This document shows positions 14,732-19,492 of a stretch of 33,549 bases of DNA, piece by piece; the stretch's first letter is position 1; the number at the start of each line of letters is the position of its first letter. Made by a program: the position numbers and the translations under genes. The notes beneath the pieces were generated by a model. It saw nothing but the letters and a program-made list of their open reading frames with translations. It searched no databases and had not been told where the DNA came from. Origin of the DNA: Methylacidimicrobium tartarophylax (GTDB lineage Bacteria > Verrucomicrobiota > Verrucomicrobiia > Methylacidiphilales > Methylacidiphilaceae); assembly GCF_902143375.2 (NCBI RefSeq), contig NZ_CABFVA020000093.1, positions 1-33,549 on the forward strand, read 5' to 3'.

Positions 14732-15676
14732 TCAAGCGTCGGAAGGCGTGGGGAGCGCGGAGAGATAGCGTTCCGCATCCAGGGCGGCCATGCAGCCCAT
14801 TCCCGCCGCCGTCACCGCTTGCCGATAGGTGAAATCGACGCAGTCCCCTGCCGCAAATACTCCGGGCTGGCTCGTCCGGGAGCCGTCGTGAACGCGGATA
14901 TAGCCGTGTTCGTCCAGGTCGATCTGCCCCTGAAAACACTCGGTGCTGGGTTGGTGTCCAATGGCGACGAAAAGGGCCGCGCAAGAGAGCGAACTCTCCT
15001 TGCCCGCGTGCAGATCACGGAGACTTAAACCCGTGAGTTTGCCCTCGTCACATCCCACCACCTCGGTGACCACGGTGTTCCACACCGGTCGGATCTTGGG
15101 GTCGCTCAGAACGCGATTGGCCATGATCGGAGAGGCGCGCAATCGATCCCGCCGGTGGATTAAGTAGACTTCAGAGGCGAAACGGGTCAAGTAGAGAGCT
15201 TCCTCGCAGGCGGAATCGCCTCCGCCCACGACCACCATGGCTTGATTGCGAAACGCGGGAAGGGCACCGTCGCAGGTCGCGCAATAGCTGACTCCTCGCG
15301 TCTCCAACTCCGTTTCTCCTGGTACATCCAGATGCTTAGGACGCGCTCCCACGGCGAGGATCACGGCTTTGGCTTTCAGCACCCTATCCTCGAGCACGAC
15401 TTGCTTGAAGCCATCGGAGAGTCGGGTGTGGGTTACCGTTGCCATGGAGAGGACACGCGCTCCAAAACGCTTGGCCTGTTCTTCCATGGCAACCATCAGT
15501 TCGGGTCCCTGTATCCCTTGAGGAAAACCGGGGAAATTTTCGACAAGAGTAGTGGTCGTCAAAAGCCCCCCCGGCTCTGTTCCTGTGATGACGAGCGGGC
15601 GAAGGTTCGCGCGCGCGGCGTAGATTGCCGCCGTCCAACCGGCGCAACCGGAACCGATGATGATGAGTTCTTCCAT
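14732..15676 (-). CDS. trxB: Thioredoxin reductase
   Basis: This FAD/NADPH enzyme keeps thioredoxin reduced, and so indirectly supports Msr enzymes such as the msrBA product. It is 314 aa from the ATG at 15676. The FAD-binding GSGCAG is at residues 8-13, the redox pair Cys132/Cys135 lies in CATCDGALP, the NADPH motif GGGDSACEEA is at 151-160, and a C-terminal FAD segment GVFAAGDCVD follows. The frame is open back to an ATG at 15715, but the 15676 start places the first FAD strand at the N-terminus as in the family. It heads the minus-strand run trxB-tig-clpP-clpX. Confidence 0.95.
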   Translation of the reverse strand: MEELIIIGSGCAGWTAAIYAARANLRPLVITGTEPGGLLTTTTLVENFPGFPQGIQGPELMVAMEEQAKRFGARVLSMATVTHTRLSDGFKQVVLEDRVLKAKAVILAVGARPKHLDVPGETELETRGVSYCATCDGALPAFRNQAMVVVGGGDSACEEALYLTRFASEVYLIHRRDRLRASPIMANRVLSDPKIRPVWNTVVTEVVGCDEGKLTGLSLRDLHAGKESSLSCAALFVAIGHQPSTECFQGQIDLDEHGYIRVHDGSRTSQPGVFAAGDCVDFTYRQAVTAAGMGCMAALDAERYLSALPTPSDA

Positions 15677-16100
15677 GGCGAGATCGATATAAGCGGTTCG
15701 CGAGGGATGGCGCAAGTCCTTGAATGAATCCCTCCGATCGAGCGATATTTCGTCGAATCACAAGCCGGAAATCGTTGAAGAGAAGGAGTTCATTCATAAG
15801 GCTAGCTTCTCGCCGCGGTAGATTCAATCATTCCCTGGAGGAACTGCAGTCGCTCTCTCCTCTATCGGAGAAGAGGTTGACGAGCTAATGTCCGGCAAGC
15901 TATGAGAACGCCTGGATTCAAATCCTCTTCCGGAGGCATTTCGAAAGTGAGCTTTCCGCGCCGGCGTCGCGGGTTTGGGGGGGGCTCGAAAGCTCCCGTC
16001 TGGATCTTGCGAAGAAAATGCAGTCGAATCAGGTTCGAAAAGGGAGTTACTTTTGCAAAGACTGCCTAAATCCGGTGGTCATCAAGGATCCGATTAGGTT
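15677..16100. other. 424-bp divergent intergenic region
   Basis: This region separates trxB (minus) from the unknown gene at 16101 (plus). It should hold both promoters, but I see no convincing -35/-10 pairs. It contains an imperfect hairpin around 15851-15873 (CTCTCTCC against GGAGAAGAG), an eight-G tract (15977-15984) inside a hairpin, and weak plus-strand coding signal in its second half, described separately. No known RNA family was recognised. Confidence 0.5.
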
Positions 16101-16104
16101 TTGA
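15889..16104 (+). other. Cryptic small reading frame, possibly a disrupted or phase-variable gene
   Basis: An open frame of 71 codons runs from just after a TAA to a TGA at 16102-16104. I count roughly 53, 44 and 63 percent GC at codon positions 1, 2 and 3, a pattern expected of real coding DNA in a GC-rich genome. Its stop overlaps the TTG start of the next gene as TTGA, as in a coupled pair. The C-terminal end reads SYFCKDCLNPVVIKD, resembling half of a zinc ribbon. The only standard start in frame is the ATG at 16018 (28 codons). A second frame opens with ATG at 15902 and would join this one if the G8 tract at 15977-15984 had one more G. It could be a pseudogene, a slippage-controlled gene, or chance. 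Confidence 0.25.
15980..15997 (+). repeat. Hairpin with G8 tract
   Basis: A 7-bp stem (15980-15986 with 15991-15997, one G-T pair) closes on a CGAA loop. The left arm is part of a run of eight G residues at 15977-15984, the kind of tract prone to polymerase slippage. It lies about 100 nt before the unknown gene at 16101. Confidence 0.4.
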
Positions 16105-17420
16105 ACGCCAACGATCGATTGTCGCTGCTGCGCAGCGGGATGCCGACTTCCGGGCTACTCGCCGAGAAGGAATGGCGCGCGAGCGATGCCGCATTCCCCC
16201 TAAGCGAGCGGCATGTCACTTTGTTAGGGAGGTTGGGTCCGGTTCTGCAGCACTTTGTGCAGGGTTGCAATCTTCTCTACCGATGGAGCGTGCAGGGGAA
16301 GGCTCCGACCTGGATTGCCGATCTTCTCGATCGAGGTAAGCCTCCAGAACTGGTTGCCCTCTCTCGGCGCCCTGCACTAGCGAACCTGATTCCGCGCGTG
16401 ATTCGGCCCGATCTTCTCTGGACGGAGTCGGGCTTTGCCCTTTGCGAGTTGGATAGCGTGCCGGGAGGTATTGGGGTGACGGCCTGGTTGCAGGAACAAT
16501 TCTCCCTCTGGGATTCGGCTCTTCTGGGAGGAGCCGGCAAGATGAAGGAAGGGTTTGCCCGCCTCTTCCCGACGGGAGACGTCGTGGTTTCCGAGGAAGC
16601 TTCTTCCTATCGGCCTGAAATGGAGTATTTAGTGGGAGCCGATCGGGTGTGCGCAGCGGAAGACTATCGCTGCAGCGACCGAGCGATCTACCGCTTTTTC
16701 GAGTGCTTCGACTGGGAAAGGCTCTCCACGATCCGAGAGAGCTTCGATCCAGATCGAGTCCCGATGACGCCGCCGCCGAAGCCCTACTTGGAAGAAAAGC
16801 TGTGGCTTGCCCTCTTCTGGTTCCGGCCGCTGCGGGATTTTTGGCGGCGTCAGCTCACGGACAAGGGATTCCAACTCCTGCGGGAAATCATTCCTCAGAG
16901 CTGGATCCTTGATCCATCTCCTCTTCCGCCGCAGGCGGTCTATCCAGGCTTGGAGATCAACGATTGGCGGGAACTCGGCCATTTTAGCCAATCGGAAAGA
17001 GATCTGGTCCTCAAGGTATCTGGTTTTTCTCCTTTAGCTTGGGGTTCGCGGGGAGTCTTTGTGGGATCCGATTTGGCCCAAGCCGAGTGGCAGAAACGGA
17101 TCGAACATGCGCTTGAGGAGTTTGGATCCCATCCTTGGCTTTTGCAGCGATTTGCCAAGGGCGCGCTCGTCGAACATCGATTTTTTACGTCGAGTGGAGA
17201 GGAAGAACGAATGACCGGGCGCGTCAGAATTTCTCCCTACTATTTCGTATTGGACGGAAAAACAGAACTCGGCGGCGCCTTGGCAACCATCTGTCCCGCA
17301 GACAAGAAACTGGTTCACGGAATGCGCGATGCGATTCTCGTTCCTGCTACCCGGATGGAGGGAGCGGCTGAACCGACGAGACCCCGTGATCGCGATAGAA
17401 AGATGGGCGTTGTCCCGTGA
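16101..17420 (+). CDS. Conserved-looking protein of unknown function, possibly ATP-grasp-like
   Basis: I do not recognise this 439-aa protein with certainty. It is soluble, with no signal peptide or membrane segment. Near residues 101-130 it has a conserved-looking block, IRPDLLW followed by ELDSVPGGIGVTAWL. Near residues 300-360 the block LVLKVSGFSPLAWGSRGV followed by LLQRF, and later RISPYYFVLDG, resemble the lysine-bearing nucleotide-binding and final acidic segments of ATP-grasp ligases, possibly circularly permuted. That is a weak resemblance by eye. The TTG at 16101 is taken as start because an in-frame TAG lies just upstream and it overlaps a small frame's stop as TTGA; ATG at 16140 (426 aa) is the alternative. 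Its stop overlaps the sucC GTG start by 4 nt, so it should be co-expressed with succinyl-CoA synthetase. Confidence 0.6.
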   Translation: MNANDRLSLLRSGMPTSGLLAEKEWRASDAAFPLSERHVTLLGRLGPVLQHFVQGCNLLYRWSVQGKAPTWIADLLDRGKPPELVALSRRPALANLIPRVIRPDLLWTESGFALCELDSVPGGIGVTAWLQEQFSLWDSALLGGAGKMKEGFARLFPTGDVVVSEEASSYRPEMEYLVGADRVCAAEDYRCSDRAIYRFFECFDWERLSTIRESFDPDRVPMTPPPKPYLEEKLWLALFWFRPLRDFWRRQLTDKGFQLLREIIPQSWILDPSPLPPQAVYPGLEINDWRELGHFSQSERDLVLKVSGFSPLAWGSRGVFVGSDLAQAEWQKRIEHALEEFGSHPWLLQRFAKGALVEHRFFTSSGEEERMTGRVRISPYYFVLDGKTELGGALATICPADKKLVHGMRDAILVPATRMEGAAEPTRPRDRDRKMGVVP

Positions 17421-18607
17421 ATCTCTTCGAATATCAGGCAAGGGGTCTTCTGGGTCGATATGGCTTGCCCATCCCGCCTGGGGATGTGGCCACGAGGCCT
17501 GAAGAAGCGCGGCAGATTGCGGAGGGGCTAAGCAAGGGTCCCTTCGTCGTGAAGGCACAGATTTTGGCTGGTGGGCGAGGAAAGGGACACTTCCGGAGCG
17601 GGTTTGCAGGAGGCGTACACCTCTGCAGTTACCCGGCGGAGGTCGAAGAAGTGGCACGGGCAATGCTCGGAGGAGTCTTGGTCACGGCGCAGACTGGTCC
17701 GGAGGGACGGCCGGTGAATAAGGTGTTGGTTGCCGAAGCGCCGCAGATCAGTCGCGAGCTCTACTTGGCGATCCTCATCGATCGTGGACGTCGACGCTCC
17801 GTGGTGGTCGGCAGCGCTCAGGGCGGAGTCGATATCGAAGAGGTGGCCAGAGAAAGTCCCGGAGAAATCCATCGGATCTGGGTCGATCCCCAAGTAGGAT
17901 TTTGGCCGTACCAAGCAAGAACACTCGCTGCGTGCATGGGCTTGTGCGGCTCTCTGCTCCCTCAGACAGCCGATCTGATCGTTCGGCTCTATCGTTTTTT
18001 TTGCGAATGCGATGCGAGCCTTGCCGAGATCAATCCACTTGCCGTGATCGAAAATGAGAAAATCGCCGTGATCGATGCAAAGATCGGCTTGGATGAAAAT
18101 GCTCTATTTCGCCACCCGGAGGTCGCGACCTACCGGAACGAGGTCGTTGAGGACGGCCGTGAGGCGGAAGCCTTGAAGGCCGGCCTCAATTACGTCGGCC
18201 TTTCGGGAGAAATCGGCTGCATGGTCAACGGGGCCGGGCTTGCGATGGCGACGATGGACATCCTCCATCGCTACGGCGGAGAACCGGCCAACTTCCTCGA
18301 CGTCGGGGGAGGAGCCGATCAGAATCAGGTAACCAAGGCATTCGGAATCCTGATGGCGGATCCTAAGGTGCGAGCGATTTTCGTCCATATTTTTGGCGGT
18401 ATCATGCGATGCGATGTGATCGCCCGGGGCATTGTGGAAGCAGTAACTCATACGAAACCCAAAGTGCCCATCGTCGTGCGGCTGCAAGGCACGAACTTCG
18501 AGGAGGGCAAGGCGATCTTGCATCAGTCGGGTTTGCCTATTCGGACCGCAGACGATCTGGCGGATGCGGCCCAAAAAGCGGTAGCTGCGGCTGCGGAGAC
18601 TCGATAA
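17417..18607 (+). CDS. sucC: Succinate-CoA ligase (ADP-forming) beta subunit
   Basis: The beta subunit of the TCA-cycle enzyme that interconverts succinyl-CoA and succinate with nucleotide phosphorylation. It is 396 aa, normal for SucC. The N-terminus NLFEYQARGLLGRYGLPIPPG is typical. The ATP-grasp region contains KAQILAGGRGKG near residue 45, EINPLAV near residue 200, and the C-terminal GGxxRCDVIARGI block. The start is GTG at 17417, overlapping the upstream gene's stop as GTGA. sucD begins immediately after its stop codon with no spacer, matching the equal stoichiometry of the subunits. Malate-CoA ligase is a related alternative but less likely given the close match to SucC/SucD. Confidence 0.95.
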   Translation: MNLFEYQARGLLGRYGLPIPPGDVATRPEEARQIAEGLSKGPFVVKAQILAGGRGKGHFRSGFAGGVHLCSYPAEVEEVARAMLGGVLVTAQTGPEGRPVNKVLVAEAPQISRELYLAILIDRGRRRSVVVGSAQGGVDIEEVARESPGEIHRIWVDPQVGFWPYQARTLAACMGLCGSLLPQTADLIVRLYRFFCECDASLAEINPLAVIENEKIAVIDAKIGLDENALFRHPEVATYRNEVVEDGREAEALKAGLNYVGLSGEIGCMVNGAGLAMATMDILHRYGGEPANFLDVGGGADQNQVTKAFGILMADPKVRAIFVHIFGGIMRCDVIARGIVEAVTHTKPKVPIVVRLQGTNFEEGKAILHQSGLPIRTADDLADAAQKAVAAAAETR

Positions 18608-19492
18608 ATGTCGATTCTTGTCGATGATTCCACCCGGGTCGTCGTTCAAGGAATTACCGGAAGGGCCGGATCGTTTCACGCCCGTGCGTGCCTGGATTAC
18701 GGGACGAGGATCGTGGCTGGAGTGACGCCGGGGAGGGGAGGGCAAAAGCTCGATGAACGCGTACCCATTTTCGACTCGGTAGCCGAAGCGAAGCAGGCGA
18801 CCGGTTGCAATGCGAGCTTGATCTTTGTGCCCGCCTCCGGGGCTGCGGACGCCATCTTGGAGGCCGCGGCATCCGATATCGATCTGATTGTCTGTATTAC
18901 CGAAGGAATTCCCACGCTCGACATGGTTCGGGTCCGCCGATGCTTGGAAGATAAGAAGACGCGCCTGATCGGGCCAAATTGTCCGGGGGTGATTACGCCG
19001 GGGCAATGCAAGATCGGCATCATGCCAGGCTACATTCATCAACCGGGCCCAGTGGGGATTGTCTCTCGCAGCGGGACTCTCACCTATGAGGCAGTCTGGC
19101 AGCTTTCGCAGAGGGGCATTGGGCAGAGCAGTTGCGTTGGGATCGGTGGTGATCCCGTCCACGGTCTTGGGCTGCAAGAGGTCGTCGAAATGTTTGACAG
19201 GGATCCTGCAACGAAAGCGATCCTGGTGATTGGAGAAATCGGCGGGTGTGAGGAACAGGATGCGGCCACATTTTGGAAAACTTCCTCTCGAAAGCCGACC
19301 GCGGCTTTCCTGGCGGGAGCAACCGCGCCGGCGGGAAGGCGCATGGGACACGCTGGGGCCGTCATTACGGGAGCCGCCGGTACGGTAGAGGCGAAAATCG
19401 CGGCTTTCGATAAGGTGGGGATCTCGGTCATCCTCTCTCCGGCGGAGATCGGGGAAGCAATATCCAAGGTCATGGCGGCCGCCGTTTCCTGA
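18608..19492 (+). CDS. sucD: Succinate-CoA ligase (ADP-forming) alpha subunit
   Basis: The CoA-binding and phosphohistidine subunit of succinyl-CoA synthetase. It is 294 aa. The CoA-binding [19 protein letters not shown] is near residues 15-33, followed by GVTPGRGG. The signature [12 protein letters not shown] is at 121-132, [10 protein letters not shown] at 153-162, and the phosphorylated histidine is His248 in [11 protein letters not shown]. Start ATG directly abuts the sucC stop. Its 3' end faces the convergent gene ending at 19524, with only 31 nt between them and no obvious terminator. Confidence 0.96.

Follow-up and report, generated by a model that had tools for sequence, protein, structure and literature searches.

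A predicted ATP-grasp ligase family linked to a lysine 2,3-aminomutase-like enzyme in three bacterial phyla

The window that we analyzed, a stretch of 33,549 nucleotides of Methylacidimicrobium tartarophylax DNA (contig NZ_CABFVA020000093.1), contains an open reading frame at 16101–17420 whose product, an uncharacterised ATP-grasp ligase, we refer to as X. X represents a new ligase family that is recognisable by structure and not by sequence, and it very probably shares a pathway with KamA, an enzyme of the radical-SAM lysine 2,3-aminomutase type. The two genes are adjacent in Nitrospinota and most sampled Nitrospirota, and in Verrucomicrobiia they are almost always present or absent together. 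Our favored reading, which we hold to be probable, is that X uses ATP to ligate the beta-lysine made by KamA to a partner.

A conserved gene with lineage-specific neighbors

A preliminary description, made from the DNA sequence without database searches, had reported a 439-residue protein that begins at a TTG codon and overlaps sucC by four nucleotides, and both this reading frame and the three motifs quoted from its translation are present as described (Table 1). Homologues of X occur in 56 of 60 relatives, the full-length ones being 47–93% identical, and the frame is therefore not a chance one. All seven members of the genus that we examined share its TTG start (in the context TTGAA) and its overlap with sucC; the stop codon TGA and the GTG start of sucC (17417) share the letters GTGA, and the X start overlaps an upstream TGA as TTGA. 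That upstream stop closes an open frame (15885–16104, forward strand) which ends CKDC...DPIRF, has no plausible start codon, and is not retained in most genus members, with similar sequence directly upstream of X found only in the closest relatives. The conserved portion of X comprises residues 1 to ~419.

Table 1. Features of X and its neighbors in the window.
Feature	Position	Strand	Remarks
X, uncharacterised ATP-grasp ligase, 439 aa	16101..17420	+	TTG start, TGA stop
Catalytic/Mg2+ motif R102-x-D104 ... E116-x-D118	16404..16454	+	invariant in three phyla
K305 and glycine-rich lid loop (KVSGFSPLAWGSRGV), putative ATP-binding P-loop	17013..17057	+	lid modeled with low confidence in X
R374-x-R376, C-terminal sheet	17220..17228	+	invariant
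CPxDKKxxHGM, residues 398–408, family-specific	17292..17324	+	possible substrate or A-loop site
X C-terminal tail, residues 420–439, reaching into the sucC overlap	17358..17417	+	non-conserved, disordered in model
sucC, succinate-CoA ligase beta	17417..18607	+	4-nt overlap with X; lineage-specific neighbor
sucD, succinate-CoA ligase alpha	18608..19492	+	NCBIfam match
trxB, thioredoxin reductase	14732..15715	-	divergent from X

The family is widespread within one class of Verrucomicrobiota and extends to two other phyla. X was found in 78 of the 95 Verrucomicrobiia genomes of our phylum sample, although most genomes of one genus (g17, Akkermansia-like) are without it, and was not found in the other classes of that sample, bar one partial match. 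Among 60 Nitrospinota genomes 46 carry X, as do 73 among 148 from Nitrospirota, the phyla being named after the record titles of the centre loci; the plasmid and phage sequences searched gave no match. Seven X-bearing loci (L036, L040, L067, L072, L094, L107, and L108) come from records titled Betaproteobacteria, Bacteroidetes, Akkermansia muciniphila, or Alphaproteobacteria; their X sequences are verrucomicrobial or Nitrospinota-like, and the records are probably mislabelled MAGs.

The NCBIfam models for succinate-CoA ligase beta and alpha match sucC and sucD with scores over their cut-offs. The preliminary description had pictured a ligase that might use succinate or another carboxylate, or regulate SucCD; this link found no support in the comparison across genomes. 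sucC directly follows X only in Methylacidiphilaceae (at a distance in one member) and is found close by in a single sister family. The total lack of homologues near sucCD that the preliminary description named as a refutation is thus not what we see, but the adjacency is clearly lineage-specific, and homologues do not generally sit next to sucCD as those of a SucCD-associated ligase would, the partner found across phyla being instead the KamA-type enzyme. The placement of trxB beside X is likewise confined to Methylacidiphilaceae. If X served SucCD, whether as its regulator or as a ligase of succinate, malate, or another TCA acid, this would fit the sucC overlap retained in all seven genus members and the close linkage in the sister genus, as well as the ability of the structural relative Cp1B to activate a C4 dicarboxylic acid. 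However, outside Methylacidiphilaceae and the one sister family the neighbors of X are ruvA, proA, or others, and in two other phyla the neighbor is KamA, which leaves a SucCD-serving role very improbable. As for ruvA, a neighbor of X at 36 of the 80 loci, most of them verrucomicrobial, we read the pairing as conserved gene order with a housekeeping gene rather than as a functional one.

Fold and conserved residues of X

No Pfam or NCBIfam model recognises the sequence of X, and neither that sequence nor two family profiles had a significant match among PDB chains, GSS included; no characterised ATP-grasp ligase was significantly similar to X in sequence or by profile. A weak Pfam H-NS match at residues 62–83 was discarded, as it fell below cut-off and lies in the N-terminal helical region of the structure model. 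We describe the placement of X from models, using Foldseek and VIA-align. The AlphaFold2 model of X (pLDDT 85, pTM 0.87) matched Cp1B and human glutathione synthetase with Foldseek E values of 1.1e-10 and 2.9e-10, respectively, and structural alignment spanned the full length, with Z scores of 25.3 for YjfC, 24.6 for Cp1B, and 24.2 for human GSS. The separation from other folds was wide: Z was 20.7–25.3 for 25 entries of the GSS/GSPS class and at most 10.9 for the next group. A second AlphaFold model (pLDDT 92), for a homologue from Nitrospinota that is ~40% identical to X, gave Z of 26.7 for YjfC and 26.2 for YgiC-ADP, with 22–27 for the GSS/GSPS class as opposed to at most 12.5 for other folds. 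By full-length structural match X thus falls in the GSS/GSPS class. Because the two models agree on this class and the catalytic motif is invariant, the preliminary description was right to guess at an ATP-grasp protein, and the modeled fold is almost certainly the true one. Of the checks that it had proposed, structure prediction returned an ATP-grasp fold of the GSS/GSPS class, while the profile search returned no family, the class being visible through structure only.

We rejected membership of X in GSPS or GSS at the sequence level, where profile searches detect nothing: a Pfam match to GSP_synth (PF03738) is absent, and profile–profile alignment of the X family with the GSPS alignment (hhalign) gave a probability of 0.5%, which is not significant. 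A relaxed alignment of the two profiles was co-linear across most of their length. X very likely has the chemistry of the GSS/GSPS class too, yet it has no sequence-level place in a named family.

The residues that would carry out this chemistry are strongly conserved. R102, D104, E116, and D118 are invariant in alignments from Verrucomicrobiota, Nitrospinota, and Nitrospirota, and they are the counterparts of R139/D141/E163/N165 in Cp1B and R101/D103/E116/N118 in the GSPS family, such that X contains the R-x-D...E-x-N/D catalytic set with Asn replaced by Asp. Changing the four Cp1B residues to alanine abolished or greatly reduced activity (PMC12568646). Confidence in the modeled lid loop (residues 306–316) was low for the window protein, and the loop is well modeled in the homologue from Nitrospinota. 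The motif CPxDKKxxHGM was not seen in the GSPS-family alignment, and may be a substrate or A-loop site.

That YjfC and YgiC rank among the highest-scoring structural matches, and that the two halves of the catalytic motif are spaced nearly as in GSPS (14 residues in X and 15 in the GSPS family), would be expected if X were a peptide–polyamine (spermidine) ligase like YgiC, YjfC, and GspS and only indirectly linked to KamA. We consider this improbable, given that no sequence relationship to GSPS is detectable, that the conserved GSPS Asn is Asp in X, and that joint loss with KamA would be left unexplained.

Gene order and joint loss of X and KamA

Of 26 Nitrospinota loci, 25 have a KamA match in the neighborhood of X (a few of them partial, rearranged, or at the end of a contig), as do all 25 of the Nitrospirota loci that we examined; a glutaredoxin is found at 26 of 26 and 18 of 25 of these X loci, respectively. 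Almost all Nitrospinota loci have the order X, glutaredoxin-like gene, KamA, whereas Nitrospirota loci have either X–glutaredoxin–KamA (18 loci) or X–KamA–dCTP deaminase (7 loci); a few Nitrospirota loci contain X without an adjacent KamA. The loci L106 (7362–8770) and L105 (2975–5171) illustrate the X/glutaredoxin-like/KamA order conserved in the two phyla. In Nitrospirota a dCTP deaminase-like gene follows KamA, and at L260–L263 the two are separated by a conserved ORF that looks nitroreductase-like by eye.

Most Verrucomicrobiia genomes have KamA somewhere other than beside X, and in the window genome it is on another contig (G000:C12). With the genes unlinked, their tie in this class rests on co-occurrence: 77 genomes have both, 16 have neither, and one each has only X (G411, in 150 contigs) or only KamA (G009, in 90 contigs), which makes 93 of 95 concordant (Fisher p = 5e-16, a statistic that ignores shared ancestry). 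Since genome counts share ancestry, we place the weight on the operons and on repeated joint loss. In the EF-P gene tree of genus g17, which is built from a single short gene, the genomes lacking X did not form one clade; the tree implied at least three changes of state, each concordant for KamA, and three independent pairs were all concordant for X and KamA. These correspond to approximately three independent joint losses (sign test, p = 0.25). KamA relatives also occur without X, in other classes of the phylum.

A Verrucomicrobiia genome reduced to a single 0.92-Mb contig (G306) has retained X, KamA, and a glutaredoxin homologue. In this genome (L279–L324) X is beside ruvA, and KamA is beside flagellar or secretion-apparatus-like genes. 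In another verrucomicrobial genome, which has X elsewhere, a glutaredoxin-like ORF is directly divergent from KamA (L123, 1432–3035).

KamA resembles lysine 2,3-aminomutase more than it does related mutases. Its scores against the Clostridium enzyme 2A5H were 454 and 371 bits, and it keeps R134, D293, and D330 of that protein, which we take to be the lysine-binding residues. The best curated model was NCBIfam lysine 2,3-aminomutase, with Glu and Arg mutase models fitting less well; because the score of 440.9 is under the cut-off of 525.4, lysine is a candidate substrate. By analogy, KamA would make beta-lysine.

A candidate beta-lysine ligase among known systems

Two known consumers of beta-lysine were sought in 27 genomes, in which EpmA gave no match over cut-off and AblB no match at all; as AblB is absent from these, we rejected the N-acetyl-beta-lysine osmolyte route. 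With X co-inherited with KamA and of an amide-making kind, and EpmA and AblB absent, the simplest reading of the product is an amide containing beta-lysine. The "peptide-like product" that the preliminary description had offered comes close to this, but its suggestion of succinate is not supported. X would then be a soluble carboxylate–amine ligase of the GSS/GSPS fold in the same pathway as KamA, which would convert L-lysine to beta-lysine. K305, the glycine-rich lid, R102, D104, E116, and D118 would hold ATP and Mg2+; X would phosphorylate a carboxylate to give an acyl phosphate; and an amine would attack the acyl phosphate to yield a beta-lysine amide, ADP, and phosphate. X is thus presumed to be active and to form an amide link, with beta-lysine, contributing either its amine or its carboxylate, the probable substrate.

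The recurrence of the glutaredoxin may point to a redox function for the product, or to a supply of electrons for KamA. As a special case of the beta-lysine reading, X would be a glutathione-like thiol synthetase that adds beta-lysine, or some other residue, to a cysteine peptide, its product then being used by the glutaredoxin. Among the nearest folds are indeed GSS and homoglutathione synthetase, the latter an enzyme that adds beta-alanine; most Nitrospinota loci and many of those in Nitrospirota have a glutaredoxin gene separating X from KamA, and one verrucomicrobial genome has such a gene next to KamA. Nonetheless, the GCS2-type gamma-glutamylcysteine ligase had no convincing match in the 27 genomes, with one marginal fragment in this search of the GCS2 class, and X has its own C-terminal motif, CPxDKKxxHGM. 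GCS2 being missing save for that fragment, we set aside the classical glutathione route and regard a glutathione-like product as a minor option, and thus this special case as unlikely.

X might instead modify protein. It could, for example, take over the role of EpmA and attach beta-lysine to EF-P, which would fit the kinship of KamA with EpmB and the lack of EpmA. Yet the EF-P loops of g17 genomes with and without X are identical and so fail to separate the two groups, and the EF-P tip of the window genome is TPGN, without the usual lysine. EF-P, judged by its sequence, is an unlikely target and was set aside; other protein targets are possible, with protein modification as a whole the least probable of the alternatives we weighed. 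Across the loci L230–L250, EF-P loop tips are TPGN or PPRM in verrucomicrobial genomes, without the usual modified lysine, and PGKG in Nitrospirota.

Returning to the beta-lysine amide, we tentatively suggest that KamA and X form an undescribed pathway to a new compound of this kind, possibly redox-active and served by the linked glutaredoxin, and that this pathway is near-universal in Verrucomicrobiia, present in most Nitrospinota and much of Nitrospirota, and important enough to be kept in a 0.9-Mb genome. A search of the open-access literature found no report of a pathway combining a lysine aminomutase with an ATP-grasp or beta-lysine ligase. Such a pathway would put beta-lysine to a purpose other than EF-P modification, N-acetyl-beta-lysine, and antibiotics, in lineages whose members are prominent in oxidizing methane and nitrite and in turning over soil carbon. 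A core enzyme without a family model and its KamA-type partner would thereby lead to a metabolite for which we found no report, and the ligase class familiar from glutathione, trypanothione, and E-64 would gain a new family in X.

Among known systems, SucC belongs to the ATP-grasp superfamily in the broad sense, but it is absent among the structural matches listed for X, which is of the GSS/GSPS class. The peptide–spermidine ligases YjfC and YgiC of Escherichia coli (GSPS family) give the highest Z (25–27), are similar in length, lack the amidase domain, and have nearly the same motif spacing; they differ in that X has no significant GSPS profile match, has Asp118 in place of Asn, and has a distinct P-loop, C-terminal motif, and set of genomic partners. 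Eukaryotic-type glutathione and homoglutathione synthetases share the fold, lid architecture, and catalytic motif (Z 24–26), whereas the sequence relationship is undetectable, the GCS2 partner is essentially absent, and CPxDKKxxHGM is specific to X. Cp1B (9cjn), of the fungal E-64 pathway, resembles X in its full-length fold (Z 24.6–25.6), its catalytic set, and its want of a detectable Pfam domain; the two have no sequence similarity, the motif halves of Cp1B are spaced farther apart, and Cp1B resides in fungal natural-product clusters, where it joins trans-epoxysuccinate to hydrophobic amino acids. The closest parallels at the level of the pathway are EpmA/EpmB, which acts on EF-P, and the osmolyte pathway AblA/AblB. 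There too a KamA-type aminomutase supplies beta-lysine, but in the X system, from which EpmA and AblB are absent, an enzyme of an unrelated kind, X, stands in the consumer's place.
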